Below, piece after piece: positions 12,554 to 60,268 of a stretch of DNA of 64,000 nucleotides (position 1 is its first letter; the number at the start of each line of letters is the position of its first letter). The notes under the pieces were generated by a model. It did not search any database. It saw nothing but the letters and a program-made list of their open reading frames with translations, and had not been told where the DNA came from. The DNA is taken from NCBI GenBank assembly GCA_003971905.1, contig RSEE01000079.1, forward strand, positions 186,001 through 250,000, in the 5' to 3' direction. A program made the position numbers and the translations under genes. The DNA comes from Moniliella sp. 'wahieum'. Taxonomy: Eukaryota > Basidiomycota > Moniliellomycetes > Moniliellales > Moniliellaceae.

Positions 12554-13471
12554 ATTGGGGCCCAAGACGACGGCGAAGTGCGAAGCGAAGAGGCAGAGAG
12601 GCAGACGCGGCGAGACGGAGACCCTGTGTGCTGTGGGCGTGGTGGGCAGCAAGCTCCTCCTGGCCGTCGCTAAAAGCGCTCTGCTCGAGCAGGTGGAGAG
12701 CCCCGGGCGTCTTTCTTGGTCTACGACAAGTATTAGAGCTGTCTGAGCGTCTATACTGAGCGCTACTTCGGATGGCCGATGGGCGATGAGGCGGGTATGC
12801 CGAAGTGCGAGGGATGCAAGCGAGCGTTTAGCGCTGCTTACCCCGGCAGTGCTCATGCCTTCATCCGACCTCGCACAGCCCACACTACGAGCCAGCCGCT
12901 CTCCGCAGAGAGGCAGCTCATTCATACTCAGGCACGCACGGATCCTTTTGGTAGTCGGTACTAAACGTCTTGGTGGTACCGGTGGTGCTACTACACCAGG
13001 CTACACCGCATCTCTCGCCCGTCGCCCCTGCCTGCCGTACGACCCAGCGCCGATCGTTAATCGTTAATCATTACTCGTACTCATTTATGGCCGGTGGCGC
13101 CACACCGTCACACGCGTCACACAGCCATCTCCTGTTACTGTCACACGTCCCATGCCGGGCCCGGCATATGTCACAGCCCTACCTCATCCGACCCGGTTAT
13201 CCACAGCAAGTAATACAGTGTCCCAGTCATCGATCATCCAGGTTCTTTCAAGCCACCAGTGCATCCATTGCATTCCGCCCCACTCCCCCTAGCATCCATC
13301 TATGGTCGGCAGTGGTCAGCAAACACACTCTTCTTTTCCCACAACACATCCTACCCATCGCCATGCATCCATCACACAGCATAATCATTAACCGATGCTC
13401 CTACTTCACACACACACTCACCGAACGCATCGTGAGCGTCCGCGTCATCCCAGTCTCGCTGCAAGCAGTCC
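12554..13471. other. intergenic, no gene seen; heptad array at 13052-13078
   Basis: This lies upstream of the kinase gene and downstream of the Ser/Pro-rich gene, so it should hold the kinase promoter. A short array of CGTTAAT heptads is seen at 13052-13078. A run of TCACA-rich and CATCCA-rich sequence follows. No domain is recognisable in the open frames. Confidence 0.4.
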
Positions 13472-14498: not shown

Positions 14499-16714
14499 GG
14501 TGCTGGGTTGGTATCGTGAAAAGATGGGTGAATGAACGCAGGATGAGTGATAGTGAGAGTAGTGAAGGGATCGTGGTGGAGGGAGGGATGAGGGTATTGC
14601 TGTAGTATTGGGGGAAGAGGCTGGTGGAGATGGAAAGCGAGAGCAACGGAAGGCAAGACTGGTCGGGATGGTCGGCGACCGATGATCGCTGATCGAGAGA
14701 TTGTGTGCGGTACTGCAGCTGTGCCAGCATGGAGGGTGGCAATTGATATTGCGGCGTTAAGCTATTAGGCTGAATTAGCTCTCCTGTCGGGCTGTCTGTC
14801 CTATGTTCAGTCCACCAACCAACTTCTGATTAATCGATTAAGCCTTAGGCCTTAAGCCACCATATGCACCTTGTGCCCCTCGCCCGGCTAGCAGCGAGAG
14901 AGACAGAACGGATGCCAAGTCACACTAGTCACTGTTTCTCGGATACTGAGGTGCTCGATGCTCTGGATCTTCCGCAGGCAGCCAAGCTTCGTCAGCTGAA
15001 GGCTGAGAGGTTCAGCACTTAGGTGAGTGTTTCAAAGCGCTCCCCGCTTTGAAGCTTAAGCTCCTGGGTCGAAGCTTTAAGCGGGGCGGAAGCTGTGGCG
15101 GCCCTTGGTCCATTGCCTGACCGCCGGACGCGTGGCTGCGGAGCTGCCTGGGGGCTCGGCCGGGGATATGGGGTCTCTCTCCAGGGTCTAGCGGCGCCGA
15201 CAGCGACGATTATTGACGTTTCAAAATTCACCTAACCGAGTGGGATCCGAGCGTGGCTGTGACTCGTGACTAGTGACTAGTGACTTTTCGTAACCTACTA
15301 GCAGCTTGAGTGTACTGGGAGATCTGAGAGTATACTTGAAGCTTGAGTACTGGTACTAAGTAACTGAGTGCTAGGAGACCACCGGTCCTACGGACCGGTC
15401 TGCTGGGGCTTCCCCCCAGCTTGTTCGCGACCTTAGCCACCCTTCCATCCTACCCACCTCGTTCCACCGTTCCACACGCGGGATAAACGGGTCGGCTTGG
15501 GCGCAGCAACTGTTTCTTTGTCCCGGCCTTAAAAATTCCGTCACTGATATGGTTACATGTTCCCCCTGTCCCAGCCTTAAGCTCTGTCAATGAAATGGAC
15601 GTGGGGTAGAGATAGGTGCGAGTGGATGGGGTGAACGTGTGAACGTTGAACGTATAAAACGTTCCAGAAGAACCTCTGTTACATATGTTACAGGTGTTGA
15701 CTGGTGACCAGTGACGCGATGGCAACAATCATTAATCACCGGTCCAACCGCTGTGAAGTATTAGGCCTTAGGCCTTAGGGGGCTAAAGCCCACAGGGCCC
15801 GAGACGAGGCAACTAAGAGTGAGATGAAAGAGGGAACGGACAACCATTTTAGTCATTCGCAACGTTAGACATTGACTACTCAACGTACCGAACGTTGAAC
15901 TCAGTAGTCAGTAAGTCGGTGTACTCAGTGAGCGTGAGCGCTCAGGCTGAGCCCCAAGCGTTTTATATTAGCCGCTGACACGCTAACAATAAAGGGCCAA
16001 AAAAGGGAAGACCGAATGAGTCTTGCGCGCTAAGACGAAAAGGTGAAGGAAGAGGGCCAAGAAGGCGAGCGTCCGACTCGGTTGTTTTCCAACCCTTCTG
16101 TTCAGCCGCAAAACTCCACCTACTAGCCAGACACAGTCTTAGAATTCGAGCCTCAATGACATTAGGTTGCTGTCAGCACTGCAGGGAGCATCGGCCCGAC
16201 AACACAACAAAAGCAAACCAGCTCTAGTAGCCTGCTCCCGTTGGCGCAGGGGAGCACGTGCTGTGACCGCACCGGTGAGGCCTACCCAGAGTAGTACCTC
16301 GAACCGATCGATCGTGCTGAGCACTCTGAAGTATATTGACGTCGACACGGGCTGTATACCTATTGAAGTGGGGAAAGACTGGTAGTTTTGGACACCAAAA
16401 AACTTGTAACACGCATAGCTAATCGAAATTTCTAGCCCAGAACCTTGCCGGCCTCGCCACAAGCTTGTCTTTAGATTTGAGGGGCACAACCTTGTCACAG
16501 CCTCGCCAACTCAGCTAGCCCCAACCTCTTGGACCACACCGCGGCAACGCCGCCCAGCGAGGTTGTCCCTAGATTGCTGCCTATAAAGCTCGTGGCAACA
16601 TTGCCCACCATTCTAGTAACAAACCTTGTCCGCCATTCTAGTCGCAATCTTGCCCGCCACCCTATTTCGCGACACTGTGGATAGCGGGCAGCCTCGACCC
16701 ATGTTAAAAAGGAA
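14499..16714. repeat. gene-free repeat-rich stretch
   Basis: No credible gene is seen. The stretch holds ATTAATC/AGGCCTT-type heptads at 14828-14858 and 15756-15780, ACTAGTG and AGTACTG heptads at 15255-15372, and a mixed AACGTT/AGTACT/AGCGCT cluster at 15890-15960. A double-hairpin element lies at 15375-15500. The 16480-16690 part is built of GCC-rich near repeats (TCGCCA, TTGCCC, CATTCTAGT). The 16139-16498 open frame has no recognisable domain. Confidence 0.5.
15375..15500 (+). repeat. double-hairpin element, copy A
   Basis: Two perfect or near-perfect hairpins lie side by side. The first has arms ACCGGTCC and GGACCGGT around a TAC loop (15381-15399). The second has arms GCTGGGG and CCCCAGC around a CTTCC loop (15402-15420). 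The following sequence (TTAGCCACC, GTTCCACCGTTCCAC) also matches a second copy at 63548-63672. The first stem differs between the copies by a T-A to G-C exchange on both arms, a compensatory change. It could be a structured RNA, a terminator-like element or a mobile hairpin element; no family is recognised. Confidence 0.7.
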
Positions 16715-16786
16715 GGTGTGTCCAGGAATCGAACTTGTGGTTTCCCCCGCTGAAAGTAGACATAGACCGTTGCACCATAAAAGCAC
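16715..16786 (-). pseudogene. tRNA-Glu-like sequence (pseudogene or SINE head)
   Basis: On the minus strand an A-box-like TGGTGCAACGG is followed about 30 nt later by a B-box-like GTTCGATTCC. The order and spacing resemble fungal tRNA-Glu: TCTATGTCTA after the A box, CTTTCAG as the anticodon-loop region (TTC anticodon) and CCTGGACACACC at the 3' end. The acceptor, anticodon and T stems do not pair properly, so a functional tRNA is unlikely. A tRNA pseudogene or the promoter part of a tRNA-derived SINE are the two readings. Confidence 0.4.
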
Positions 16787-17429
16787 TAACTACTTTGCGG
16801 CGATCACTGGACCCAATATTCGTATGTCCGTTTTCACACGAAGAGTCGTCAAAAACATTTGTAGACTGGTGGTGAAGAGTATACATCAGTGGTGGGTACA
16901 ACTTCTCATAGTATCATTCGTAGCCCATATGGAACCGTCTACACATTCATTGCTGTAATTGTACTGCCCGCACAATGTCCTCGTCCGTCGATGGAACATT
17001 ATCGTCCTCGACCGCCCAGTCCTAGGCAAAGGCCAAGTCAGCAAGTCGCAGGATGTCGATGTGGGGAGAGACAGAGTGTGACAAAGTGGTTAAGCACTAA
17101 CGTATAGCAGCGCTGCACCGCCGATGTCCGAGCCCGTCTTGCTTAAACTCATCCAGCAACTCCAGGACCCCGAGACGAAATCGGGGAGTGGCTTCTTACG
17201 TTTCTTGCTATTACTTGCCCCTGCCGAGTCATCCAGACTCTTTCGGTACTTAAACAGGAGAAAGGAGGCGTCCTTCAAATACTTGTCGTTCACCCCCGTC
17301 TGGTTTGCTCGGTCGTTGACCCGACCGTCGTTCTGGACGACCATATCGAGCTGGTGATCGACTTCGCGCCTATAGTAGCTTCGACGCTTGAACGTGGATT
17401 CCTTTCCGTCTTAATGTGTTCGCCAGTTA
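16787..17429. other. gene-poor stretch, no gene recognised
   Basis: A short minus-strand open frame at 17090-17344 (with SKKRKKPLPDF) may belong to the same decayed coding region as the sequence at 17430-18780. Otherwise nothing is recognisable. Confidence 0.3.
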
Positions 17430-18780
17430 GTCAGTCGCCTTGGTGCACACTCAGCACAGCACTAGAGCCTCGTGTACGCACCAGACAATCAGTCACGTTC
17501 TCCGCCAATGTATTTGTACCCCGTTGCCATCCGCAGTCGCACAAACGACAGCACACGTGAGCAGTCATGCACATCACTGAAGCCATCTCGTTATCGCCCT
17601 TCATTATCGGCAACACGGGCTGTACAAAGACCCATCCCTCGGTATTCGAATCCCAGACAGGGATGAGCTCCTCGTGATACTGCCTGTGTATGTTCGAAAA
17701 AGGCATTAGCAAGCTTTCTTTCCTTGCAGGAATCACGGCGGCTTCACACTGCAAGCAACTTGGACTAGGTAGTGATACTCACACTTAAGCTGTTTGACCA
17801 GCTGCTCGCACAACGGGAGGAGAGACTTTGCTGTTTCTGATGCAAACAAGAAAAGGTTCTTTGCCCTTCTAGACTCGGCCCATGGTACGTCCATGTTGCC
17901 CAGAAGCAGGCTGTTAAGAGAGCTTGGCCAATTGGACACATTGTCTCCAAAACCATTGGCCCATCCCTCCAGCTGGAGACGGACTAGTTGTTTCGGTCAC
18001 AGGCTGTGGCACTGAGGGTGCTGATGCCCTTCTTTTTCCTCCCCGTCCCACCACGTGCCTATGTCGTACCAGGATGGAAGTCAGTAAGCCAAGTGTTTCC
18101 GCTGCGCGGTGGAGTGCAAGGCAATTTACTGATGGCCGTCGTTGAGGTGCAGCTTTTTGTCATGTTCACCTAAGCAAGAAAGGCGGTACGTGTCGTTTTG
18201 CATGTGAACTTCGGCAGTTTGGTCGTCTCGTCCTGGGCCGAGTTGGCCCCGATGTTGTACCACAAGTCACTGTCGGCGTCGTGTTGCCACAAGACGAGAA
18301 AGATAGGCGCGGTAATACCGAGCAGGTGAACAGCAGGTTCGCCAAGGTACATGTGAATATCCAGATCGCGTGGACGCTTATTGACCATCGGCTCAGTCAC
18401 TTGTGCCGATCAGATTCCATCGTCCCTTGTGTGGCTCTTCCATGAACCCGTCCCTGTGAGGACCTGGACCATAGCCCTGGGCGACCAGGGCTTGGTTTAC
18501 TGTGGCATCTTGGAGCGGATGGAAGGGTTCGAGGACATGTATGAGCTGGAAAATGCCGTCGACCGAAGAACACAATGTACATCGTCTCCTGATACAAACT
18601 GGATGCTCCGATGCACACGAGAGGCTGCTGCACCTTCTCAATTGCCTTAGTTTTGTTGAGCGAGTAAAGAGACAATTTCCCTTCGGTCTTGCCCGCGACT
18701 TGTGCGAATGTGGTCTTCTCTCGCAACGAGATAGTTGGACTGGAGTATTCGTGCTGTATATAGCTGCTGTCACGACTATC
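17430..18780 (-). pseudogene. unrecognised coding-like remnant, broken into several frames
   Basis: Several minus-strand segments look like real protein rather than random frames. In order they are FAQVAGKTEGKLSLYSLNKT (about 18640-18700), DGIFQLIHVLEPFHPLQDA, RDLDIHMYLGEPAVHLLGI (18180-18390), SSLNSLLLGNMDVPWAESRR (17740-17940) and MPFSNIHRQYHEELIPVWDS (17430-17710). They sit in order on one strand but in different frames, and a candidate intron (GTACCG...TTGCTTAG) lies near 18170. I do not recognise a family. It may be a lineage-specific gene with unresolved introns and indels, or a decayed gene in repeat-rich DNA. Confidence 0.3.
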
Positions 18781-20603
18781 TCAAGTGCACAACTTAAAAG
18801 AATCTATATATGAAACGCCCAGGCTGCAGGGGGGGCGCCGGGGCTGGCGGTGGCGTGGGGGGACAACACTGGCGCCATGCGGGTGGACCACCGGTGGACC
18901 ACCGGTGGTTGCGTCTATAACCGCATGCAGCTGCGCCGATGCTCTTGCCTCTCGACTACCACCACCATCACCACCGCCTCTCTCTCGCTGGCCACACTGT
19001 GCTATCAGAGCTGGCGCCATGTGCCCGGCTCGTTGCGCTGCCATTATATACACCCCCGCCGACGTGCTTGCTGTGCAAGGGCCTGGCCTCGGTATGTCCA
19101 CGCCCCCCGGGCGGATGCTTGTCGGACTGACTCGTCTGTGCGCAGCTGACGGAAACGAGTCGACCACGCCTGGTGGCATGGTCTTGCCTGGTATCCTTCA
19201 CGTCAAGATATCGGTCATGCCTCCCAACAGCGATTGAACATCAACGACAAGGGCGCTTCGAGCGGACGGTCGACGGCGACGGTTTCCCCGGCCAGGGCTC
19301 GACGGTCAGTACCTGCGCTTTGTCCTTATCCGCCCATACACTGACAACGCCTTTAAGCAGGATGATTGAAGAAGGCGCTCAAGTGCTGCAGCAACGACCA
19401 CGGAACATGTGCAGGCTTGCACACAGATCATCGTTCGCCGTATGGTTGCGGGACTCATTCTCCCTCTCGAACACGATGACGCTTCGCCCCCACGCCGCAA
19501 GTTGTATGGCCCTTGTATCTTTGCCCTTCGGTCCCTATCATCTCGGCGTCCCCATGATGTTTTTGGTCCGCGATTAACGACGAAGGCAAAGCTTCTGTGG
19601 TTGCCGCCGTCCTGAGGCTCCTCGAACAACCTGTCGTTGCCTTGGCGCTCCTCTACGTCTCTGTGTCTAAACAACCATGGCAATGCATGCTTTTAAAGAT
19701 AATCCACTGCCTGATCTGATCTGATAGCATCGTGGCACCCTAGCCACCACCCTAGCCGCCAGCCTGGTGAAAATCTGTGGCTAGCCTTGCCACCAGCCTG
19801 GTGAAAATCTGTGGCTAGCCTTGCCACCAGCCTGCCAGCAAGGCTGCGGACTGTCCGGGGATAGCTGGGGGATAGCTGGGGTAACCTGGCGCCAAGCAGT
19901 CGGGTAGATTGTATCGACCTTGCGACCATCTTGCCGCCAGCTTTTGTTGTACAAGGTTGTGGCAATTCTAATCATAGTCTAACGGTATCAAGTTACTACC
20001 CTGTGGCGAGATCGGCGGCAACGTTGTGACGAGAAATTTCGATTAGCTATATGGATAAAGAGAGAAGGGAGAGGCACCTCAGGCCGAGGCCCGGACTTGA
20101 CCTCAGGGGTGGCCTACTATGGTCAACGATTGATTGACACAGTGATGAATGGCCCCACGCTGAAGGAAACGGGTCTACGGGCAACATGAACGACACCAAA
20201 AGAAAAAATGGTATAACACCCACGAATGGAGCCTGAAGATGAAAAGGAAAGAAAGCCAAAACAACGCTCGCACTCAATGGAAGGTGAAAAGAAAGAGAAG
20301 GATTGTGCGAGCGCAACGAGAGGGGAGGCATCCCAACCCGCTGCCAATAGGAACTAAGACCCCGTGGGAGTACATCGACGAGCCAAAAGCTTGCTTCAAG
20401 ACTTCTCAAGGCGGCGGGTAACGTCGAAAAGAAAGAAGTCAAACCAAAAGACAAACCCCAGGAACCAAAATAGCCAGCGCCCCCGACCGCACGGAAGGGA
20501 CTGGACCCCCGATCGCACAGGCATAGGAACATCTTCCGCCTGAACGCAACAGCGTGTAGAAAGGTTGTTTAAGGGGGGCAATCGGGAGAGCCCATAACAG
20601 GGG
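18781..20603. other. gene-poor stretch, no gene recognised
   Basis: Open frames here overlap in both directions and have low-complexity composition. The only clear structure is a 34-bp minisatellite at 19760-19837. The part next to 20604 is the 3' flank of the helicase gene. Confidence 0.35.
19760..19837. repeat. 34-bp minisatellite, about 2.3 copies
   Basis: The unit begins CAGCCTGGTGAAAATCTGTG and recurs exactly 34 bp apart at 19760, 19794 and (partial) 19828. A weaker partial match to the unit precedes it. The flanks are rich in the same AGCC/GCCACC words. Confidence 0.85.
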
Positions 20604-23917: not shown

Positions 23918-24516
23918 TGTCACAGTGCGGCGGACTCGAGATGGTCCGACCGAAGCTAAGGCCCGCCTGCTCCGCACATGCCCAGTAGAGCGTGCTCCGC
24001 AGGCCAACCAAGTGTGATGATGGTTGGCTAAATTAAGTATCGTGGCTGAAGGGCCATGCTCCGTGCGACAAAATCGCCCCCCGCCCAAGTCCAAGTCGGC
24101 CGGCCTAAATAAGGCCACCGAGCTTCCAGTGCCGTGGCGGCATCTGCCGTCCCGTCCCCGTTTCCGTTTCCTTTCTCGGTCGCGCCTGTGGCGACCAACC
24201 CCGTTTTGACATGTCTTCCTTTCTACACCCCCCTCTTGTATCCGTTTCCCTTTTGATCCTGCCTGTACCCCTGGTTGATGGGGATCTTTTCCCCCACCTT
24301 CCATTATCGTCTCAACCCCCTCGTCTACCCTCTCGTCTATCCTGTGCGACTCCTGCCGGTTTTCCAGCCAATTGATCCAGTACAGGCAGTCTACTTTTGT
24401 TAGCGTCCGACATCCCCTCCAATCTCGTCCTCCAGCGATTCGTCAGTCCAGTCGCGCGAGCCCTCCTCTGGCCGCGTCGATTTCCAGTCTCAGTTGAAGC
24501 AGTGTTTGTCCGCCGC
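23918..24516. mobile_element. truncated LTR copy, same family as 1078-1918, opposite orientation
   Basis: It starts TGTCAC at 23918, like the 1918 end of the solo LTR read in reverse, and stays closely similar for about 600 bp up to TTTGTCCGCCGCT. There the similarity stops abruptly. The missing remainder of the 841-bp LTR and the absence of flanking internal sequence mark it as a fragment. With the 1078-1918 copy it forms a 22-kb-spaced inverted repeat. Confidence 0.85.
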
Positions 24517-26880
24517 TAGATAGTTTACCGCTCGGATGTATACCACACGTTCATCGAGTTCATCCGTATCCACATCCCTATACCTCGGGTCTGGGAACGG
24601 GTGGCGGGCACCAGAGAGTCCTGATCTCCTGATGGCGATTCCCCTGGTTCCTTAAACGGGGTTGGCGCTAACATGCAGCACCCTCTGGATGAACGGGTCG
24701 GTTTAAGCATAGACTTCTTTGTCCCTCAGTTACGGGGCGCTCCAGTTATGTCCGACATCATGCCCTGCATTTCGTAGAGCTCTCATCGAAGCACACGCCA
24801 GCTCCGCAAGACTAGTCAGTGAGAGTAAGCACGCGGCATCTTACACAATGCCCGGACACCTTTCTTTAAAGTTCCCCCCATCTTCTGTTTACGCCTGTCA
24901 TGAGGCCCAGGCGCGCATTGAAGAGGAGACACTGAGTGGCTCTATTATCGCAATATGGCTCAAGGCAGGGCTGCTACAACAGAACGCTGAGTTTTGTCTC
25001 CCAGGATCGCGCTCATATGGCCTGTGTTGCTAGTTCGTGCTAACCCAAACAGCAAGCCAATGGAGTCCCCAGCAGGTCAGGACCCTCTCGCTCTCGCCAT
25101 TCGCCCCCAAACCTGGTGTATCGCGGGAGTATTGGAATGATGTAGAACACCACAGAAAGCAGGCAATTGCTAGTTTTTGATACTGTAGAATAGAGATACT
25201 GCGTGGCAACACGGGCTAGCGACCAATCTCTCCTTTTTGGCCGTTCGTCATTGGCCCTCCCTTATTTCCCTTTGACTCGCTGCCCCTTTTTACTCTTTGT
25301 AGACCCGTTGGTCGTTCCCCTTCTCATCTCATCGTCCATAAAGCATATACCTGTTCTTATATCCCAATGTGATGGCCAAAAGCTGCCCACCAATGTCTTA
25401 TGTCCCCTCTCTCCCATTATTCTATACTAAGGCATTCCACTCTAGACGAACCGCCCTTTGAATCAGCTTGCTCACTCTTCTTCGCTCATTGGAGCCCCCC
25501 GCTTTCACGTTCGGTCCCTATTGATGTGCAACCTCATTTTTCCTGGACGCTTCCTAGTGGTTCTGCCCCGACGGTCAGCAATGCACTATCGCGACCCTCC
25601 TTTTCACGTTAAAATGTTCCTGTTGGACTTCCGTTGTGAAACATGTTCAGTCCTTCGTGAGTCTTTTGTCTCCGATTGGCAGGGAAGGTTACCGCCTGGA
25701 AGCCAACACAACCCCCTCACACTGTGAGATCTCTACAGAGGCTAGGAGAGAAGATGCTGGCCCTTCGGTAAATGGCTCGTCGGTTACGAATATCGGAAGG
25801 AATGCACGAGGTGAGAACCGGATTTTTGGCTAGTACTTAATGCCACTTTTCAGTGTGGCACCACAACCACACCGGCCCAAGGACAGCACGAACGGGTTTC
25901 TCTGCAATCTCTCGTCAAGCTCAATCCCTTAAGTTCCCTTCAAAACATTGCCATCAAAGTGGCCCAGTGGGGTGGGGGGGGGTCAGGAATCAGCCTCAAA
26001 CAGCTGTCCCGCAGCTGCTCAATACGGACCTTTTGTATCCGATCACTATAGGCTTTGGAGAGGTTGTTCACACTTTTAACTTGAAGGAAACAGGGATGGC
26101 AATGCCCGCGCGGTTGCTCTCACTACGTACGTAGAGTGGGATGAAGAGGAGACGAAACGTGGATAACAACAGAAAATATAAACAGGGACAGCAAAGGGGC
26201 GACTGTCGTCAACAAAAGGAAAATACGTAATAGGGTCGATGGCCGCTCGGGCCACCGGTCATGGTATGACCGCTTCGCGATGGTGGTTCTTGGTTGATGG
26301 ATTTGGGAGCGAGCTCTACTAATAGTGAATGAAGCATCGTGCCTTTGAGGTTAGATCGAATCCGGGGAGGCCCTTATAACATCATGCTCTTCTTCACATC
26401 AAACTGGCCACGCATGCATGACCCACGCGTCACGGCGCTACAGGATGCATTGCATGAGCACAGGTGCGTTGCACTACGGGCCCGTAATTGAGTCACCCGG
26501 TCACTTAACCCTTGACCAACTTGACCAGTCAGTCTCATCGGTTAACGTTCAGCGTAAGTCCACACGGTCAACGCCGTTCAATGACTCTGTGTTGTGCCAT
26601 GGAACATGACACTCTCCGATGAGCACAGTCTATACAGGAAATGTGGCCACAATCCATCACAGGGTTACAGAGAGGGGAAACGAGGTCACGAGTGAATAAG
26701 CGAAGAGAGCGGAACGATGGTGGAGAGACGGGTCACTGACTGCAAAGAAGGAGGATGACAGGAGAGGCGAGAGCTATAGTACAAACGCGCCTATTATAGT
26801 GTCAACTAAGTAGTGCCTGAGCCATGGCAGGCCATAATGGCACCAGACTATAGGCAAGCTATCCCCCCACGCCACTGCAA
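24517..26880. other. gene-poor stretch, no gene recognised
   Basis: Plus-strand open frames of 60-93 codons occur throughout (for example 25203-25430, 25458-25727, 25853-26134), but none shows a recognisable domain and they do not join convincingly. The stretch may be degraded repeat or a decayed gene. Near 26345 a B-box-like word (GATCGAATCC) occurs without a convincing A box. Confidence 0.3.
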
Positions 26881-27590
26881 GAGTACTGAGTATAAATAGA
26901 GGAGTAGTACTGTGTGAGTGCACGATGTGAGTACACTGAGTACCGACTACTGTTTGAGTACTTAGAGTACTGAGTGTAAGTAGTACTGTTGCGTGTGTTG
27001 AACGTTGAGAACGTTTTGAGTACACAACTAAAGGCGTACATTGTGTACTGAGTACTGAGTGTACTGACCTAGTGACCGGTGACCTGTGACCTGTATCTAC
27101 TGTCTGCTGCGGGGCGGAGTAGGGCGGAGTAGGCGTTATAGTAATGCTGGCCGAGTATGGCGGAGGACCAGCTTGTGCAAACTGAAAAGCTTGAAGAGAC
27201 AACAACCACCGGTTGATCATCGATCATCGATCATCGTTTAACGTTTAACGTTTAAAATTTAACGTTTAATTTAACGTTTACCGTGTTTATCGTTTAGATC
27301 TTACCGGTTACCGGTTACCTCTCGATTGGTCATGAATAGGTCAGTGGTCACCGGTCACCGGTGGCTTACACCTATCACCGGTCATTAATCATTAATCACT
27401 CCGGTCAGTGATAAGTGTTCACGTTAACGCGATTAACGATTGATTGACGCCGAGGCCGGCCGAGGTCCTGTGGATGTTTGACAAGTGAGAGTGAGGCCGG
27501 TACCAGTAAGGCCGTGAGGCGCGTGAGGCCTCAGCTGAGGCCTGAGGCCCTGAGGCTCAGGCCTGACCAGTGACTACTGACTAGCTCGCG
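26881..27590. repeat. large composite heptad-palindrome island
   Basis: This is the clearest example of the window's heptad arrays. It holds AGTACTG-type units (26881-27065), then an unbroken passage of ATCGATC, AACGTTT and ACCGGTT units (27214-27319), ACCGGTC and ATTAATC units (27342-27400) and AGGCCTG units (27510-27560), ending in ACTAGT-type words. Different palindromic cores follow each other while the 7-bp register is largely kept. No coding sequence is seen. Confidence 0.85.
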
Positions 27591-28563
27591 ATACGGGCAA
27601 TAGCGCGTTGGTAATGGGCAATGGGCCCGGGGACGCAACAGGGGTCGGTGTCCACGATGTTCAGAGGCATGATGTTCAGGTACACATACAGCACGGGGGC
27701 ATTGCTGAATGATATGAGTAGACGATCCGTGGGCTGCGTGATGCATATGATTGGCCCGCCCGTTATAGGAAGGGCCTGCTGTTCAAGGAGGAGACTGGGG
27801 GATGTTGTTTTGAGGAGAGGTACAGGAGGCTATGAGAAGGGTGGGCCACACGTTAAACGGTACGCGTTAAACGTTAACGGCGAATGTGGGTACAATTTGA
27901 AGCCAGCAAACCATAGTAGGTAGAGGGAGCACTGATCGCGATTTGTGGGCAACTGTAAAAGGGTCGGACAATACGAGTGAGACCAAGTACAAGGTATAGG
28001 CAAATGATGCACTGGTATAGACAGACGGAAACAGGGTCGGCGAAGTGCAGGAGAATATTTACCTGATTGGCTAAGAGGGCCGTGACAGCAACGTCTTCGC
28101 GCTTCACATTCACAGTACGTGTTACATGTTGTACGTGTCTGTCACACATATCACATGCAGTGATGGTGTGACATGTGCTTGTTACATGCGCTAGTGTACA
28201 CATTGTGACGGGGCAACGGTTCCAAGTGCTTTGGCGTACCCCAGCACGTGCCAACTCCTGGAAACACTCTCAGTATATTTAATAGTCACTAGTCCCCTCG
28301 CCCGGCGTGAACCTTAGGCCGCGTAGGCCTTACCGGTTACCGGTTACCCCGCTCGTCTTCATCCCCCCAAAAAGATGACTAGAGACTACTCCTATACGAT
28401 ACGCCACCACTTATTCCCTACATTCGTCCGTTGTGCACAGCCCGCTGGACTGCCGCCAGGGGACGCGGCCCTAGACTTGGACGAGGACCTCAAGCTCCGA
28501 CGTTGTGGCCGCATCATAATACTCACTCTCTCTGCCACACTTCCACCAGCCTGGACTTGAGAT
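27591..28563. other. intergenic upstream of the DUF3712 gene
   Basis: No gene is recognised. ACATGT-type words cluster at 28110-28190 (TTACATGTTG, GACATGTG), and AGGCCTT/ACCGGTT heptads lie at 28312-28348. The last 200 bp should contain the promoter of the gene starting at 28564. Confidence 0.4.
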
Positions 28564-31500
28564 ATGTCTTCATCCGCATCGGGTATACGGGCGCCCATCG
28601 ACGGTGTAGGACTCCTACGCCGACGCCGTCACCCCAATGCCCCTCCCCCACGCAGATCTGGGCAGATGTATCGGGTTGGGCAGCCCATCGGTTATTTTGC
28701 CGCACATGGTACGCCCTACCAGAAAAAGTATCTGACCAAGAAATTGGGCTTCTTCGTTCTTGTTTTCTTTCCTCCTACCGCCCTTGTCAGCTTAGTGATT
28801 GCTCTTGTCCCCGTCCTCTGGGCCATTGCAGACCACACTCTCAATGTCGTTCAATTGGCCATTGATCAGGCCAACCTGACCGCACTCGCCAACAACTCTT
28901 TTCCTCTCTCGCTCTCTGGACAGGTCCGTTGCAGTCCCCTTTTTGACTCCTTTTCTTGCGTAAATCAGACTCCGCCTGACCCCTAAGAAACAGAGTATTA
29001 AGGCTGGCATTTTCCCAGCCTCGTTGTACTTCCGCGAGCCGCTAGATGTCTACTGGATGTCCCCACCCCCGGAAATGAAGGAGCTACACCTGGGAAGCTT
29101 CCCACTGGGGCGTGTGAGTGTCGACAGTGGCCACGGCCAGGTGCTTCAATCCACGCCGTTTACGATTGCTAATGAGGAAGCGTTTGGTCAATTTACCGAG
29201 TTCCTCGTCACCCAGCCGCGGTTTACCTGGAACCTCGTATGTAACAACACCCATGTTGAGGCTCTTGGCTTCTTGCCAACGTACAAGAACTACAAGTTCC
29301 AAAAACACGTCAATTTCAACGGCTTTGACAACTTCCATGACGTTCAGCTGCTGGACTTTCAGTTGCCAGGTAACGACCCTTTGGACGGCATAACGTTCCA
29401 AGCCCTGACCACCTTGATTAACCCATCGCCTTTCTCGGTGCAGCTAGGATACCTCAATTTGGATCTCTACTACAAGGGCCACTACATGGGCCCAGGCGCC
29501 AGTGCTGAACCGGTTAACATTACCTCTGGTCACAATACTATCCTTCTCACAGGTCGATTACTGCCTTACAACACCAACCAGACCGCTCTTGACATCACCA
29601 GCGATATTTTTACGAAATATGTCAATGGCGAACTCGTCCCTGTGGTGGCCAAGGGTGTCTCGGCGACACAAACAAATGGGGACGTGATCTCGTGGCTAAC
29701 AAAGGGTATCAAGGCGCTGACGATCAACGTTCCGCTGCAAACCCAGCCCCTCGGCCCCATCAAATCCATTGAGATTGACGAATTCAGCATCATCTTTTCA
29801 GAAGACTCTCCTTGGCAACCGTTGGCCTTCTCTGACAACCTTAAAGCGATGATCGGTCTACCTTTTGGGTTCCAGCTCAACATTGTCGACACACAAGACA
29901 TGATCAAGCTGATGTATAACAACTCGGTTGTCGGTGTGGTGGAGGGTACCTACTCCAATTCGACTCTAAGTTTGAACGTGGTAAATGCCGGTTCAACGGC
30001 GGGGACCTTAGCCTTGACCTTACCTCCCTCACCTTTGGCGCTAGGGGGTAACCAGACGCAGCAGGATTTATGGACCCAGTACCAGGATGTGTTGGTATTT
30101 GGTGTGAACACCTCCACTCGTCTTGCTGGTGTCTCTCACGCCTTGACCGATACTCCCGTTGGGCGCATCCTCCTCTCTCCTATCAACTTTGACGTCGAGT
30201 CCGGACTGACGGGGCTCCAGGGACTGAACAAGTACCCAACTGTGATCAGTGCTGTGGATCTGACAGGGGGTACGACGGATGCACTGCTACTCTCAATTCA
30301 GACCACCATCATCAACCCCTCGAACCTGAACCTCACCACCGGCACGGTCAACTTCCAATTGGTCAACGACGTGGTTTTGGGAACGGTAACGATGCCCAAT
30401 CTGCACCTCGACTTGGGGGAGAACAATGTGACAGCACAGGCCGTCTTTAATCCTCGGGCAGGCCTAATGATCCTGGTGACCCAGCGACGTCCTAAGTGCA
30501 GTTATGCAATGGCAGAGAGAAGACAGGAGCTGGGTTGAACCCAGACTGAGGATCAGAAGAAGGAGAAGAAGGAGAAGAAAGGAGAGCGGCACTAGGCCAG
30601 GGGATAGGGATACTGGTGTGGTGCCCGGATGAGTAAGATGGTCAGGAGTGCCGCGGAGGTGGCTGACCCATAGGACCCTGGTCAACAAGGCCCGACAGGC
30701 CAAGTTACTCTTAACCGCTTCGTATCGGGGCAGGACACCTTGCTTTACATCAACGGGTATAACGGCTCCTCATCCATTACCTCACTTAATCCTTCGCTCG
30801 AAAAGATTCGGATCAACACCATTCTCCTGGCCTGAAGCAAACATTGGTATCAAAAGCGCAGCTCCAAGTGCTCAACACTACAGGCATTGTCAACGACACG
30901 GCAGATGCCGTGGTTTCCCTCGCCAACCCGTTCAGTACCGACTTGACCATTACTCACATTTCTTCGGACGTCTTCGCATACAGGATCAATTTGGCTAAAA
31001 TCGATTATTCGCTCAACTTCCCAGCCATGGCGAACGCCACTACGCTCTCACCGACCATCCCACTCACTTTAAATCTCAATCCCCCCGATATCTTTGGGGC
31101 GGTGAGGGCTTATGCTCAAATGGCCGGACTTGATCCAGGATTCATCGATGGAATCTGTGCTGTGGGGGGGTACAATCTCACTCCGACAGTAGATATGCCA
31201 CCACCGCCGGTAGCACACCTTTCAGTGGGGGGGGCGAATAAAAGGGATGTGGCGAGCGACGGAGTGGAGTGTTGCATGACGGAGGAAGAGGATGCGCTGA
31301 AGCATGATGGATTGGACAAGCGTGGCCTCCAAGTGAATCGCCATCAGAAGCGCAACATGTTTCATGACTTCAACCTCACCAGTTATGTGGGTGAGGCGTT
31401 TGCGCATGCGCTCAGCAACCTATCTGTGGTGGCCAACACAACGGTCGGTGACTACGCTACCTCCTTGTCGATGGCTCAACTCAATGTTCCGCTAGCGACG

Positions 31501-42060: not shown

Positions 42061-44178
42061 ACTTGGGACTTCTGCGTCACCTCCTATCCCATCGGAGCAC
42101 TTTCTTCCCGTTGTTCTTCCTTGCCTTTTCTGCTGTGTGTGTGTAACTGTCCAGCTGCTTACTATACAAAAATATGCTCGTTTCCCCTGTGGTTGGCTTC
42201 TTGCTTGCATAGTGTCTGTAACAATTTGGCATCGACTCAATGCGCGCGAGCCCAATTGAATCGCCCCTACTGAACTCTTTTCATTTTAGCGACGTCCTGA
42301 GCCACGCGGCTAAGGGGATTGCAACATATGCTGAAGTGTATAGGAAAGTAGCGGAGCCGATCGATATTATGATAGGGGGCGAAAAATGGGCGTTGGTCGC
42401 AGGAAGCTGGAGGAGAGAGCTAGAGGATAGTACGGTTGAAAGCCCCTACTGGCTTACATTTTGCCAAGCTCACGCTATACCAGCCTTCGGAATCTGTGGG
42501 CTTCGCCAGTGACTAGTGACTAGTGACTAGTGACTCTAGTGACTAGTGACTAGTGGTATGCCAAGTCGCAGTAGTCAGTAGTCAGTAGTCAGTGGCAGTA
42601 TCAGTAGGCAGTCCAGCTAGTACTCGAAGTACTCAGTCATCCTGTGTGGCAACATCGTATCCGGCCTCTAGACTGATGCTGTCTTAGATCTTATGAATAT
42701 GAGCACCGAAATACCATGGTCACGCGTCACTGCACTCCGCACGTTCTTTCAATCTCAGACGGTAGCAGTAGTGTGCGGACGGGCACGGGCTCCCGGGTGA
42801 TTCCACCCGGGTTCCGTTCCCCGTCCGGCGGGTTCCGCTCCTCCTTCTCTTCATCCATCTGTTTACACATCTGTCTGTCTGTCTGCGCTGCACCCCCACA
42901 AGTAGATGCATGCACATCAGTTTCCGCGGTCATTATAGTACTTTGCCCTTACTCGTCTCGCCCGCATATCTGCCACAATCAGTCAAATCCCCCTTTTATC
43001 GGGATAGCCAAGGGTGGCGGCTGTCGCCTTGCTTTCGGGGAACGAAAGCCGTGCCATCATATGATGCCCATGATAAAATGCTCCCAACCCTGGACCTCTG
43101 GTTACTTCCACAGTGGCTCAGCTGGCTGAGGCTCAAACTGGACGCCTCCTCAGTTTGAGCTTGAGTCCTCTGTGGCTACGCCACACAGCCTACGCCTGCT
43201 GTCTGGTTTGATTTCCTCAAGGGGCGCAAGTCGACATCATCGAGAGTTCAACGTTCAGAACTGCCAAAGCGCACGCAGATTGATACTGAGCTGAGGCTCA
43301 GCGCTACTCAAGATCTCGGGGAGGCGTTCCTCACAGAAACGTCCAGGCTGTTCTTAGTGGCAAAAAGGGGCTGTCGGAGGTCCAAGCTGGTTGCAAGCGA
43401 AAGGGATGTGTGCACGTGTGTGGCCATTTCTGATCTGAACTCTGAACGGGGATATCCATAAACGCCTTTCGGGTAGTATTAATTGGAACATGCTGGGCGC
43501 GGCTTGTGTGCTGGTGGCGGGCTGCCGTCGTGCATCATGCATCACGGCCATGGATCATGCATCGGGTATACTAGAAAGGTCAAGCCGGTCAAGCTTCAAG
43601 CTTCAAGCTTCAAGTGAGAACCAGCTGCCTGAGATCGACCGTGGGTATGAGTAGCGGATAGATGGCCGGGATCGATGATCGATGAAGCTGATGAAGCTTC
43701 TTGAAGCTTGAAGCTCGAAGCTCGAAGAACGGTATGTCGAGAAACATGAACTGCATGAATGTCATGAACCGATGGCGATATAACGATGCTGGTAATCCGG
43801 TAATCGATAATCGGTAATCGTCGATAATCGATAATCGATAATTGATCATCGATCATTGATCCGATCAGTGATCGATCGAGTAGATCTGTGCCAGTTAAAC
43901 GTTAAATGTTAATGACAGTTTTGCTGTGGGCAGCTGCTCGGGGACCCTTTTGTGTCGTTTCAGCCGCAGTAGATGGGCTGGGCACGGGGGCTGAGTACTG
44001 CATGGTCTGTGGCGCGAGGGATGTGGCTGGGGAGGGGGGGCTATAACCTTAGTGGCTGGCTCTTCGGCGGGTCGGTCAGCCGCTCCAGTGCCGCGGTTAG
44101 CATCCAGAACAGCAGGCCACTACCACTACCACCACCACCATCCCCTCTCTACCTCCACATCCCCTCCTTTTTCCGGGC
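42061..44178. repeat. gene-free stretch with prominent heptad arrays
   Basis: No credible gene is seen. ACTAGTG heptads form a clean array at 42508-42556, followed by a GTAGTCA array at 42567-42594. AAGCTTC heptads lie at 43589-43614, AAGCTTG/AAGCTCG heptads at 43682-43728, and ATCGATA to ATCGATC heptads at 43792-43880. A 9-bp-stem hairpin next to an A-box-like word lies at 43118-43160. The last 200 bp, with CCACCA and CCTCC runs, should hold the promoter of the scaffold gene. Confidence 0.6.
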
Positions 44179-49420: not shown

Positions 49421-52400
49421 GGTGGCCTTCAGCTCATAGCCATCCGACCTTCCGCCAGAAGTCGGTGCAGTTTCAAGCTGCTGGCGTTGCACCTGGTCGT
49501 CGATTATGTCAGCAAGGGTTTACCCCAGCACTATCGTTGATTCAACGTGTTGCCACAACTACCACCACAGTAGTGCAAGCTTGCCGTTCTTTCTGCATCT
49601 CGCCCCTGGGTCGATGGTCCCTAACTGCTTGATTACATCCTATTATGTACTAGTTACCTTACCTGTTACATGTTACCCCCGCCCCGCTCGTGGATCTTGA
49701 TCTCTTATGGCATCACCTGCGCCTAATACCAGCAGTATGCACAGTACTCCCTCTATTGGCCGAACATCATGCATCATGCATCATGCAAAATGGATGATGC
49801 TCGCACTGGCTACCCAAAGCCGCAAAAGCGCAGGATCGAATTCAAACTTTAAGCCGCGATTCCGCTCACGGTCAGCCGCTGCACGGCGAATCCACCAACC
49901 AACACCAGCCAACACCCCCTTCAACTTGGGCTACAACCGCCATGTCGCGTCAAACCATCGGACGCGGTGGCATTTCCATTGGTGTGCCTTCCTTTCTCCA
50001 TACCGCGTTCTCCGCGTACTAGGGTGCTTAATCCTTCCATCACCTTCCACCTACAAGCCTTGATATCTCACTAGAATCCTTACCAACATCCGCAAGTCAT
50101 TTGGGCTGCCAAAAGAACCGATCCCATGAAGCCGCGAGATGCTGTCTTGGGTGGCTTTGCAAAAGCGCTAACGTACTATTCGTCCAGTGATCGAAGTGGC
50201 CTAAATACGCTCTTCCTTCTCACTGTCTAACCATCGTGGTCCGAGGCAATTTGCAAATGTCCACGCGCTCTTGGAAGCGATCTCAAGAGAGGCGTGCGAA
50301 TATAATTATGAAAGCAGGATCAGAGTGCTGTCGAGTTACGACTCGACCCTCTACCCATAACGGGCTCCGACTGGGAAACATGTCTCTTGATACGGTGTGA
50401 TGTGCAAAGCACAATTTTGGTTGCGTAGTCTTTTCTCGGTATGCATAGTGAGTGTACTGGCAGTAGAGCGAAAGGTTGTGCGCCAAGCGCGAGATGTGAG
50501 GAACTGACTGTGACAGGGGACGGGAGCTTGTTGAATATAACCGCTCCTCGTTTCGGGACGTAACCGGATGCCACTATCCACATATAGCGTATTCTAAACC
50601 CAGGAAGAGGCCAATTCCAGGAGCCTACTGGAAGGAGTTGAGGTGAACTTCCTCTTCTCCTTCTCCTTCTCCCTCACCGCCATCTGCCTTGGCCAGTTGA
50701 CTTCCTCAACAGAGCTGAATCGGTTGACATCGTTACGTCGGAACAACGGAATGCTGCAATCTAGGCGCGCGTAGAAGATGTTCAGAATGCAATGTCGTGT
50801 CGGAGAATGGTGAGTGGTGGAGTTGAGGAAGCGTTTGGCGCGTGTGATCATTGTCTCCTCTTCTGTCGGGTTTAACAACACTATTATACATAGAGCAAAG
50901 CCAATACAGTTTCCTCTTCCAAGAGAAACGAGCACGTATCTCCTTGTGTATACTACCTTCCGGAACGCAACAGCTATATATGCCCCTCTCTCATTATCAA
51001 AGTCCCTCAAGTGTGATCCATCTCCTTTCCTGATTTATCAAACGCACCTTCTCCCAGCATCACACCTGTAGTCCTCCGTCCCCTTTTGGGCATACCCTTA
51101 CCCCTAATCGTCTTCAGTTTGCAAAAATGTGTGTTGATAATATGTATTTGAATTGGGCGGATCGTCTGTTGCCTGGCCTGTAAAACAGTGGTGAAGTTGG
51201 TAACCGGTAAAGGTTATAATGTAATGCCTTGGTCAAATGGCCAACATACCATGGGATGGCACCCCTACCGACTAAGAGAGCTAGGCGCTGACAATAATCT
51301 GATTAAGAGAGCACACACAGGCACAGAGACGAAAGAAGGAGGAAGTCGGTGCGGTGTCAGTACTCAGTAGCGGAGAGAAGTGAAGACACCGTAGAGTCAG
51401 GAGTCGACGCGAACACATTTTTTAGCACAAAAGAAGTCGCAGACGCGTGGACTGAAGTTGCCGAATAAGCCCAGCCTCGCGGATGGTGTCTAGGGAACTC
51501 CCCGTCAAAACTGTTACAGTTATTAAGTACTAATGATTAATGGTTAATGACTAGTCCTACAGGTTTCAACGGCATAAGCTTCAAAGTAGCTTCTTTAATG
51601 TGTACTAGCCAGAACAGGCTAGAACCGCGCGATAAAGCTAACCTGGTTCCTGACCCCCTGGGGCCGATTTTGCACGAACATGCGTTTTGTTTCAGCCTTC
51701 AGCTGCTCAGCGCTCAGCTGAGCCCCACCACGCGCCGCATGCGGGGCGCCACATGTGACTGAGAGAGATCGCCCAAGCGCTCCCACATGCGCCTAAGCTA
51801 CAGGGGGCATCTTAAGTACTAAGTACTGAGTACTGACGGAGTAAATGAGTACACTGAGGTACTGAGGCCTGGGCCTCTGACATGTGAGGTCTCAGAGAGA
51901 GGCCGGCCGGCTGAGGAGCGCAGTCAGTTCTGCTTCAGGAACATGGATTTCAGCGCAGCAGCTGTCAGCATGTCAGCATGTCAGATCTCTCAGATCTCGT
52001 ACGGCGCAGACAACCCTCAGGCTGAGGCCTCGGGCCCTCATGTATCATGCATCAGTACATCAGTGAATACTCAGTTGAGTAACTCAGTAGTACGTCAGTA
52101 CGTTACATATCAGTACTCAGTTACTCAGTACTCAGTATGAGTACCACGCGTTAATTGTAAAGGTTAAGCTTAAGTACGTTAAAGTGATCGATGATCGATG
52201 TTCACACTGAGTACTGATCCCATGCCTTGAAGCTTGAAGCTTGCACACCGGCAACGCCACTTGTCTGGGGTTCCACGTTCCTTCCACATGGTCGGGTCTC
52301 AGATCTCGGATCTCTTATACATGTCACAAACAATCACCCACGCATAAAACGGTGTATCATGCGTCATGCATCTTCCATCCCGGCGGTGGGCTTCGGTTCA

Positions 52401-53820: not shown

Positions 53821-55544
53821 ATAAAGCGGTCAGTCCTCTAACTTGCCCCCTGGGCCAAGTCCGCGAGGACACGCCTTCGCCGCATACGCGCCTGAGTCTC
53901 TCCGTCCGGAGCTGGTACGCGTTGACGATCTGTCCCGCCCCTCTACCATACGATTACGATATTTTTGTGAAACGAAATAATGTCTTGCAACTCCCCCACA
54001 GCTGTACTTTTTCAAAAGCTTTTAGCGTGAAGGTTCATATCAAGTCAGATGGGTGGCAGGCGTTAAACGTTAAGCCTTTGGTGTGACTGGGTCCATGGCA
54101 ACCTGGTCGTCTTTCTGAAGTTGAACCCTGAAGACAGAGAGGATTAACACCTGGTGTGTGTAACGCGTATATTGTGGTGCAAGGGCAGTAACTGTATACT
54201 ACCAACGAACGGTCAAAAGCGCGTCAGCGTCGCATGATTTTATATTTCAATCATTCATGGTCGTTGTCTTGGATCCAGTGACCTCTAAGTTGAGAGCCTC
54301 TGGGTCTGGACGTCGCTGTTCTGATCTGACCGTCTCGTTTTCTCGTTTTGAGAATCTCCTCTTACGCCTACTTGTTTTACGTTTCTAGGTGAGTGCGAAG
54401 AACTTGCCCTTTATCTTGGGCAGTTTCTGGTTTAGATTGTTCCCGTTCTTGGCTGAGTCTGGGAACATTTCCGAACTCGGTCTGTCCTCTTTTCTGCGAG
54501 CCACTGATCTCGATTCATTTCCCCCTTTTTCGTTGTGTTGTCTATCTCTTATCGATCCTGCCTGTATGACCCGTGATACATGTCCCTTTCCCCCTAGCGG
54601 GTCATTTCGTCGTTTCCCTGGTCTTATTCGTCTTTTCCTTAGTCTACTTCGTCTTTTCATCTTTGTCCACACTTCGTCTCTTATTCCTCTCTCATTTTTC
54701 GTTTGTAACAACATTCTTTGCAAAAACCCATTCTTGACCCGCTAGGCAACTCCGGCCTTTCTCCTCGTTCACCAGCACACAGCCCCTGCGACCTGCTTCC
54801 AGCGACCACATCTCTTGTGGCTTTTCCGCATCCTTCCGGCTTGGCATCCATTATATCCATTGCCGTCAACTTCCAGTTTTCAGTCTCTTCCTCTGTACAG
54901 ATCCAGTGGCGATCCTACAAGAGTTGAGTCACGTACGTTCAACGTTCAACACGTTCAACCCACTTGTGACCCTGAAGGTTTGAGGGCCTAATGGCTTCAA
55001 GCTTCAAGCTTCAGGCGATATAAATACCTCAACATTTCGTCAACATTTCCTGAGGGAGTCACTAGTCACTGTGACACACATGTGACAATCCATGTGACTA
55101 GTGACTAGTGACTTCGGACTAGTGACTGGTGACCGGCCTGAGGCCTGACGGCCTGACCTCTGGCTGGGCTGAGGCGCTGAGGCCTCAACGCCTCAACGCC
55201 TCAGCGTCAAGCTCTTCTTGGTGCTTCAAGCTTCAAGCGTCAAGCTTCAAGCCCTCAAGCCCTCAAGCTTCAAGGGTTACCGGTTACCGGTTACCGTTAA
55301 ACTTAGACGATTAACGTACGTTTAACGCCAATGTCCCATACACCGATTTTTATATCCTACTTCCCTGTCGTAAAAGCTTGGCTCACAAGCTGGTGAAACT
55401 CTTCCTTTAGCTCAGCCCCGCCCCGGGCAGGACCTGTAACTGATATATCAACCACCCCTCCTCTGATAGTTGTACACACTTTACCTTCAAGGACCTTCCC
55501 CTCGTTCTCCAAAAGAACCACAGGCGTCTGCTGGCTGGCATATC
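53821..55544. repeat. intergenic with pyrimidine-rich stretch and a composite heptad island
   Basis: At 54380-54720 the plus strand is very pyrimidine-rich (CGTCTTTTC, TCGTTTT). Part of it (GATCCTGCCTGTA ... TCCCTTTCCCCC) resembles the LTR family at 23918-24516. At 54931-55300 a composite heptad island runs through AACGTTC, AAGCTTC, ACTAGTG, AGGCCTG, AAGCTTC again and ACCGGTT units. No gene is recognised. Confidence 0.5.
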
Positions 55545-58955: not shown

Positions 58956-60268
58956 GATCTGCGCCAAGTTAGCCCGAGCTCCAATTTGAAGACGAACGAG
59001 GGAAAGCGTACGAGAAGAGTGGATCCGGGTAGACTCGGGTGGGGGCAAGCAAACGAACACCCCGCCAGCGGGGCTATTTAAGCACGGGTCCAAGAAGGAG
59101 TGTGCGAAGGCCGTGCGCAACCCTACCAGAAGACGCGCATGAACGAGGCAGGCCCAGACGCTGATCGAACACCCACGATCGGCCTCACTGGCTCAAGCGC
59201 CACGTATACTGCGCCCCTGCGAGGGCAGGCACATCATGCATCATGCATCACGCCAGCCCTCCGCAATGCGGCGAAGGGAGAGCGGCACACACTGGGCCCC
59301 CGCCGTGTCCAACATGGCTTCGGCCTGCTTCGACCAGATACCATCCCGCGCGCCAACGTGACTCAGTTAGCTGCGCACGGACTTTTGCGGGCGCCCGTCC
59401 CGATGAGCGCACGTGACGCGTGACGTGTAATACTGCTCGATCACTGATCACTCACTCGCCGCTCAGCCTGAGCGCTCCTGAGCTGCTCACCAGCTACTCA
59501 GTACTCAGTCTGAGCGCTGAGTGAAAGCTCACCTGAGCCTCAGAGTTCAGGGCGCTCAGGCCCTCTTCAAGCTTCCGGGCTCAGATGTCGATGAGCCTCA
59601 TCGTTGAGCGCGCGGCTGTGCTCTCACAGAGCCAGAGCGTCCAACGGAATACTACCTACCTGGACTACTTGTCGGAGGCTCAAGCCGTAAGGAACTCCGC
59701 TGCACGAGATTCAACGACAGCCAGGCGCCCTTGTCTCACCCTCTTTCTGTAGAGTATGATTTCACGGCAATCGAGTTCATAATTCGCCTATGACCGAATG
59801 ACCAGAGACGCGTAGCCACTATATGCACCGAGCTTGGACGAAAGGAGCAACAGCTGCAGGATCGCAGTCTAACACCCCACACGAACAAAGATGCGTAAAC
59901 GTTAAACTCCATTGTGGTCCGGCCAAACCAGCCCCAGGGTCGAGTTCTTGGCGTGAGCGCACCTTACTGGCACAGATTACCATGTATTAGGCTATGCCTG
60001 ACTCCAAAACCGGCGACCCGCCCTTCATTGCAGACGATACACAATCATCTATCGACGGGGAACGAGGACAACTCTTAAGTGGATGGCATAGTAGCTTGAT
60101 TGGCGACTGTCACTAGGCATGCATTGCTGAACTGAACATCTCGATGATCTGCTTGCCGGTCTCCGCTTATCAGGAGTCGCAATGCATGATCTCGGTGTAC
60201 AATGCCAATGGGAGCAGAACATCCAATAGAAATAATGACCCAGGTCCCTTGATCGACAATGGCTTAGT
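58956..60268. repeat. intergenic; cyclophilin promoter and heptad arrays
   Basis: The first 130 bp are the cyclophilin 5' region. ATGCATC heptads lie at 59234-59255. A cluster of AGCGCT, AGTACT and CTGAGC words lies at 59440-59580. From 59600 to 60268 no gene is recognised; the last bases are the 3' flank of the ceramidase gene. Confidence 0.45.

Follow-up and report, generated by a model that had tools for sequence, protein, structure and literature searches.

CNG trinucleotide expansions are hairpin-forming microsatellites whose unit is a palindrome plus an unpaired base. Heptamer repeats of the GGGAATC type are described in Xanthomonas and Nostoc (PMC4692102). Fold-back copying of a stalled nascent strand, with elongation of palindromes, is described for rad27-deleted yeast, which lacks a flap nuclease (PMC5677150), and template switches that create hairpins, with loop lengths of 3–8 tabulated, were inferred from comparative data (PMC8794818). 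Snap-back synthesis by polymerase theta yields inverted-repeat insertions, and the gene for this enzyme, POLQ, is said in the same source not to have been identified in fungi (PMC9962433). Here, tandem arrays of palindromic heptamers are analyzed in a DNA stretch of 64,000 nucleotides (the window; positions 186001–250000 of contig C79, RSEE01000079.1) from the 69.5-Mb, 223-contig assembly of the basidiomycete Moniliella sp. 'wahieum'. No published description of such arrays was found in the open-access literature.

As in CNG microsatellites, a single strand of these arrays folds with periodic mismatches; unlike CNG, with its one fixed 2-bp palindrome, the arrays have a free 4-bp core that differs from place to place within the array. 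Palindromic heptamers also occur in smut fungi, and the rule reported below may bear on them. For the heptamer of Ustilago maydis, only one primer was found in the literature (PMC2219887). The 7-bp period, intergenic location, and variable length are shared with the bacterial heptamers, which in the families described have one unit type each (PMC4692102). The likeness to template-switch (quasipalindrome) mutation is closer: the new bases complement nearby bases of the same strand, palindromes are made or lengthened in one event, and amplification can come after. The loops and arms described for that process are variable (PMC5677150, PMC8794818), whereas in the arrays strong enrichment was found only for a loop of 3 nt closed by T..A together with a core of 4 bp, giving a T-N-A turn, a 2-bp stem beyond it, and a step of 7, very many times per genome. 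The events described for polymerase theta are likewise varied, unlike this single 7-nt rule (PMC9962433). The fixed turn and the fixed step are left unexplained by the published fold-back and template-switch cases, and we regard the 7-nt rule as a variant of template-switch mutagenesis that is new in its fixed geometry.

Identical 6-bp palindromes placed 7 bp apart form 27 pairs in the window, compared to a mean of 0.3 across 30 third-order Markov copies of it. In 26 of these pairs the outer base is A, and the remaining one is GCATGC. The original prediction, made from the letters of the window, named ten array units, which are exactly the outer-A units among these pairs. The arrays that it placed at 27,214–27,400 are present, with ATCGAT, AACGTT, ACCGGT, and ATTAAT units, each plus one base, and the succession of three cores was found inside 27219–27315. 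It also described each unit as an ANNNNT palindrome plus one base; the palindromic arrays are real, but their invariant part is better given as T-N-A plus a 4-bp palindrome. In total, 105 sites of the form TNA-core-TNA with the same N were found in the window, covering 14 of the 16 cores. Half-and-half units, such as ATCGTT, were found between the arrays.

The rule was tested in a genome sample of 264 kb, consisting of the window and 20 stretches of 10 kb picked by position only. Repeated spacers of 1–7 nt were combined with cores of 2, 4, or 6 bp and sorted by the closing pair of the spacer. For the 4-bp core and the 3-nt spacer closed by T..A, 289 sites were palindromic and 222 were not (57%). 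All other core-4 combinations with at least 50 sites were palindromic in 2–10% of cases; the 5-nt spacer closed by T..A, with fewer than 50 sites, gave 7 of 47. A milder excess over the expected 25% was found for the 2-bp core (32–49% for 5-nt spacers with complementary closing pairs and 40% for the 2-nt spacer A..T), which is probably due to the same arrays being read in another frame. No comparable excess was found for the other centres, gaps, and core sizes. Where the second spacer base differs, the core is palindromic in 44 of 306 T-X-A sites (14%), 20 of these 44 being complementary, and in 63 of 1008, 75 of 1201, and 12 of 321 sites closed by C..G, G..C, and A..T, respectively. We attribute this mild excess for T-X-A to mutated or switched spacers within arrays. 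On the seed strand, that is, the one carrying the 5-mer NNTXA discussed below, X is mostly C or G (G 50, C 35, A 15, T 10); it is regarded as free because this bias resembles that of T-N-A odd palindromes generally.

The grammar of the arrays is real and genome-wide. In the 264-kb sample, the pairs at 7-bp spacing have outer A in 80 cases, G in 3, C in 1, and T in none; spacings of 6 and 8–11 bp gave 0–6 pairs per outer base. The original prediction had proposed comparing genome-wide counts with controls. This comparison was made for exact three-unit patterns, with each overlapping placement scored in longer arrays, and it bears the grammar out: ACTAGT was found 344 times and its backward control TGATCA 2 times, AAGCTT 1081 and TTCGAA 0, ATCGAT 270 and TAGCTA 2, AGATCT 58 and TCTAGA 0. 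CCTAGG and GGATCC were both absent in this form, and AAGCTT at 8-bp spacing was found only 2 times. For the ten palindromes tested, there were 1753 placements with outer A and 4 with another base. Extrapolation from the 289 palindromic sites in 264 kb gives ~76,000 sites genome-wide, a figure that spans both haplotypes and in which about 1 in 20 sites is there by chance.

Taken singly, the ACTAGT heptamer is also found outside this fungus, as at least 102 stretches with ACTAGT arrays came from an exact scan of bacterial and archaeal genomes. Among the bacterial loci listed there (736 kb, chosen for ACTAGT), no such grammar was found, the other palindromes at 7-bp spacing having outer A in 3 cases, T in 5, C in 2, and G in 7. 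Several ACTAGT heptamer arrays are located in a single genome, that of Candidatus Omnitrophota STF1_189 (L104 and L107); in L104, ACTAGT pairs number 29 and a GCGCGC pair occurs once.

The smallest arrays were analyzed for their span. Chains of one, two, three, four, and five cores number 173, 40, 9, 1, and 1, respectively. The 7-bp period has a span of 12 bp in 56 of the 173 isolated single-core sites, of 13 bp in 37, of 14 bp in 18, of 11 bp in 17, and of 10 bp in 13. Because 12 bp is the most frequent span, the commonest smallest array is a 5-mer NNTXA plus 7 bases, and this 5+7 structure is found in most small arrays. Growth by copying of a complete existing unit, as in ordinary microsatellites, is disfavoured, since duplication of a whole heptamer should give a 14-bp product. 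Exactly two extra bases on one side and zero on the other were found in 48 sites (25 + 23); 4 more sites have two, and no more, on either side. The first two flanking bases match on one side in 110 isolated sites, on both sides in 25, and on neither in 38. These 110 sites use 15 of the 16 cores and thus do not derive from a single fixed heptamer. One-sided sites are left-only in 82 cases and right-only in 84, so there is no strand preference. The control comprised 221 sites with the same X and T..A at 7-bp spacing but without a palindromic core; spans of 12, 13, 14, 11, and 10 bp were found in 47, 40, 14, 30, and 63 of them, and the one-sided pattern of two and zero in 29.

The 7-nt step is also seen between haplotypes. 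The region 26,500–29,000 of the window has a second copy on contig C3 at 88%, and the assembly contains both haplotypes, at least here, because the C3 stretches on either side align in order with the window. The haplotype alignment comprises five stretches with 24,092 columns and 926 mismatches and a sixth set with 4,198 columns and 90 mismatches. Among the differences, 19 are of 7 bp, 12 of 6 bp, and 3 of 8 bp. Eight of these 19 can be rotated into a T-X-A odd palindrome, compared to a background of 3.7% (binomial P = 2e-7), and none has another centre. The ill-aligned stretch 25,228–25,699 and the inserts having an internal gap were left out of this test for odd palindromes.

For the full rule, a seed NNTNA was compared with the seed plus n × N1N2N2'N1'TNA over the 25 differences whose size is 7 or 14 bp. 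Eight of the 25 follow it without a mismatch in either allele, with N1N2 being the complement of N2'N1' of the seed. Closing pairs A..T, C..G, and G..C gave 0 of 25; A..C gave 3 and G..T gave 2, every one within the same eight events. With other fillers, the direct repeat gave 0 and the reversed one 1 event. In six of the eight cases (13227, 27331, 27346, 27865, 52015, and 54679), TNA-core-TNA is missing from the short allele at the site concerned, and in four (13227, 27331, 27865, and 54679) this allele offers only the 5-mer, followed by bases without the other half. Fits with one or two substitutions were found at 28203, 43528, 27301, 12777, and 50043 and, by eye, at 28191 and 59902. The best computed fits for 28191 and 52055 landed on the adjacent array and were therefore not counted; 42551, 42599, and 49779 are ambiguous. 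The differences of 5 bp are odd palindromes in some rotation in 7 of 7 cases, with several centres and a background of 25% (e.g., 26409, 43311, 57371, and 57940); judging from these seven events only, they could perhaps represent a second fold-back class. Additionally, 10 more bp are found at 54391 in the other haplotype and form TGAGTACTCA, which is palindromic over its full length, with a switch of the spacer base from G to C.

With a probability of about 0.58, the arrays are footprints of recurrent fold-back with self-templated insertion of 7 nt and not a conserved element. The two complementary bases cannot arise by simple slippage, and we therefore infer fold-back copying. A 3' end with the sequence 5'-N2'N1'-T-X-A-3' would be released from its template, fold over the T-X-A turn, and extend itself by N1N2, copied from its own N1' and N2'. 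The resulting 7-nt mini-hairpin N2'N1'TXAN1N2 would stay in the strand, and N2'N1'TXA would be supplied again either by synthesis on the original template or by ligation to the re-annealed downstream strand. The product, N2'N1'TXA-N1N2-N2'N1'TXA, would have gained 7 nt, with a 4-bp palindrome completed between two T-X-A. Repetition of this step would produce arrays with the flank matched on one side only. A point mutation beside T-X-A would create a new half site, in which the next insertion would write a new palindrome; the many cores under one rule and the half-and-half units between arrays can be explained by such substitutions, which would start new cores. For the fixed T-N-A turn and the step of 7, a protein recognizing T-N-A or a special geometry of the turn has to be assumed. 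By analogy with rad27-deleted yeast, the unsealed flap of an Okazaki fragment is most likely the site of the process. Two ideas had been put forward in the original prediction, a fold-back-dependent process and a family of dimer-binding sites; the 5+7 arrays and the complementary bases favour the former, and the latter fares poorly (see below). The remark on folding back anywhere is correct for single-stranded DNA (fold z = -3.56), but this property alone leaves the T-N-A rule unexplained.

Several results weigh against fold-back insertion. Exact fits are lacking for 17 of the 25 differences between haplotypes, those at 13179, 14771, 27000, 55171, 12865, 25420, and 54170 being far from a fit; the difference at 59540 does not fit either. 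With two haplotypes compared, the short allele of each pair of seed and array could also have arisen by loss, and the long terminal repeat (LTR) family, two small families, and gene paralogues contained no usable site for polarising single events. Enrichment is absent for the other sizes of loop and stem expected from ordinary fold-back. About half of the one-sided sites (0.42–0.51) adjoin another T or A in the 7-bp phase. The non-palindromic control also exceeds chance at spans of 12–13 bp; we take these sites to be decayed arrays. None of the 105 sites of the window lies inside the 3.6-kb transposon or the two LTR-like copies found there, and no rule-following insertion was seen by eye in 17 aligned LTR-like copies, one stretch of the alignment, near columns 513–560, being too ragged for judgement. 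The NNTNA 5-mer is thus insufficient alone. Beyond it, the array neighbourhood, the kind of DNA, or its age matters, and an array neighbourhood may be required.

Of the other explanations, the one that survives best, though we consider it unlikely, is cutting at T-N-A by a sequence-specific nuclease or transposase, for example with the 3-nt stagger of PIF/Harbinger-type elements. Hairpin-derived (P-type) bases would then seal the break, each unit being a repair footprint. The strict T-N-A and the strict 7 resemble an enzyme rule, and T-N-A is found on either side of the core. Nevertheless, a 3-nt stagger with P bases needs extra steps to produce a flank matched on one side only. A search for the Harbinger-type transposase domain PF13359 (DDE_Tnp_4) gave 0 candidates, the search being unreliable for absence. 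The search for the polymerase-A domain PF00476, present in POLQ, also gave 0 candidates and missed even the mitochondrial member of this family that is expected in the genome. The 3.6-kb transposon of the window was rejected as the source of the arrays, its terminal inverted repeats being read as flanked by TA and not by a T-N-A repeat.

Still less likely is ordinary slippage of heptamers, in which palindromic units would be kept since hairpin loops escape mismatch repair. Heptamers are over-represented simple repeats in some of the bacteria described (PMC4692102), plain 7-bp duplications do exist in this genome (two were observed, in the LTR-like copies L041 and L046), and the 14-bp span, although minor, was found among the isolated sites. 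Slippage, however, needs all 7 bases beforehand, yet 12 bp is the commonest span, and only the 5-mer is on offer in the short allele in four of the eight exact haplotype cases. It also does not predict the preference for T..A over A..T, C..G, and G..C. Slippage is thus largely contradicted by the 5+7 structure, and the statement of the original prediction that slippage would not select this grammar is judged right.

Maintenance of the arrays by selection, as clustered sites for a dimeric DNA-binding protein, is highly improbable. The 105 sites of the window are indeed clustered (variance/mean per kb 6.8) and located mostly outside long open reading frames (ORFs), which hold 6.7% of the sites though they span 41% of the window. 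At the same time, the cores vary freely yet stay palindromic, which binding does not require, and the array lengths are unequal between haplotypes. The mismatch rate between haplotypes within 25 bp of the sites is 4.2%, above that of ORFs (3.1%) and matching other non-ORF DNA (4.0–5.4%), which gives no hint of constraint or of additional substitutions near the arrays; the part of L026 preceding the ill-aligned stretch was omitted from this comparison. A mutagenic neighbourhood around the arrays is likewise rejected, the rate not being elevated. Chance, composition, and assembly artefact can be practically dismissed, given the Markov copies, the whole-genome controls near zero, and the presence of arrays, different from each other, on the window contig and on C3, which also makes a collapsed assembly unlikely.

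If the arrays do result from fold-back insertion, they bear on how mutation is described. Mutation spectra are usually given as substitution contexts and slippage, and here one rule, in which a 5-mer goes in and 7 palindrome-completing bases are added, seems to be the source of a notable share of intergenic DNA. The arrays would be natural, countable products of fold-back with fixed geometry, a mechanism otherwise inferred from rare events, and thereby this mechanism becomes testable via sequence statistics, mutation accumulation, and reporter strains. More speculative, and on balance doubtful, is a dedicated or hijacked activity of this lineage (a nuclease plus polymerase, or a fixed-step fold-back polymerase) that would recognize 5'-NNTNA-3' ends and write self-templated, palindrome-completing 7-nt insertions, so that much of the intergenic DNA would derive from one mutational grammar. 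The arrays, haplotype differences, and repeats of the window are listed in Table 1.

Table 1. Arrays, haplotype differences, and repeats, with positions in the window
Feature	Position	Remarks
ATCGAT x2	27219-27231	
AACGTT x2	27240-27252	
ACCGGT x2	27303-27315 and 27350-27362	
ATTAAT x2	27384-27396	
ATCGAT+C array (TCA-TCGA repeated)	27216..27236	terminal half unit carried on by next array
AACGTT+T array	27235..27280	40 bp less in other haplotype
TTACC(GGTTACC)x2	27301..27319	other haplotype: CTACC only, 14-bp difference
CATGA without array	27328..27340	other haplotype: CATGA(TGCATGA)x2
GGTCACCGGTCACCGGT	27346..27362	one unit fewer in other haplotype
ATTAAT+C array	27382..27398	13 bp more in other haplotype
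GTTAA+ACGTTAA	27866..27877	other haplotype: only GTTAA
Two sites	28188..28211	each with one more heptamer in other haplotype (TTAGTAC; CTGTGAC)
Isolated TCATC+GATCATC	13227..13238	other haplotype: only TCATC
Lone TCTTA	54676..54687	other haplotype: TCTTA+GATCTTA
Single CCTCAGG	52012..52027	other haplotype: one extra CCTCAGG heptamer
ACTAGT+G array	42509..42535	length differs between haplotypes
AAGCTT+C array	43589..43614	stretch 30 bp shorter in other haplotype
Exact fits to the full rule	13227, 27331, 27346, 27865, 43670, 43700, 52015, 54679	two units at 27331
LTR-like repeat, 600 bp	23918-24517 and 1316-1918	most copies begin with TGTCACGG; copies listed are at 90-95%
3.6-kb transposon	16415-20050	19-bp perfect terminal inverted repeats
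1.39-kb element	61385-62773	direct terminal repeats of 241 bp at 99% identity; L014 has close copies
Dispersed repeat, ~130 bp	27959-28088	at least 38 further places at 71-83% besides window and allele

Several repeats were found in the window besides the arrays. The 3.6-kb transposon has four other copies at 95–98% and more, partly shorter, copies at 80–90%. One LTR-like copy, in L052, is located directly after an ACCGGT-type array. A scan of the window against Rfam, the ~130-bp dispersed repeat included, gave 0 matches. The 1.39-kb element is missing from the C3 copy, where two alignment blocks share a 5-bp overlap; this element is probably a recent insertion that differs between the haplotypes. 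The genes of the window include those for a DUF3712 protein, a cyclophilin, an RSN1-type channel, and an RRM protein.
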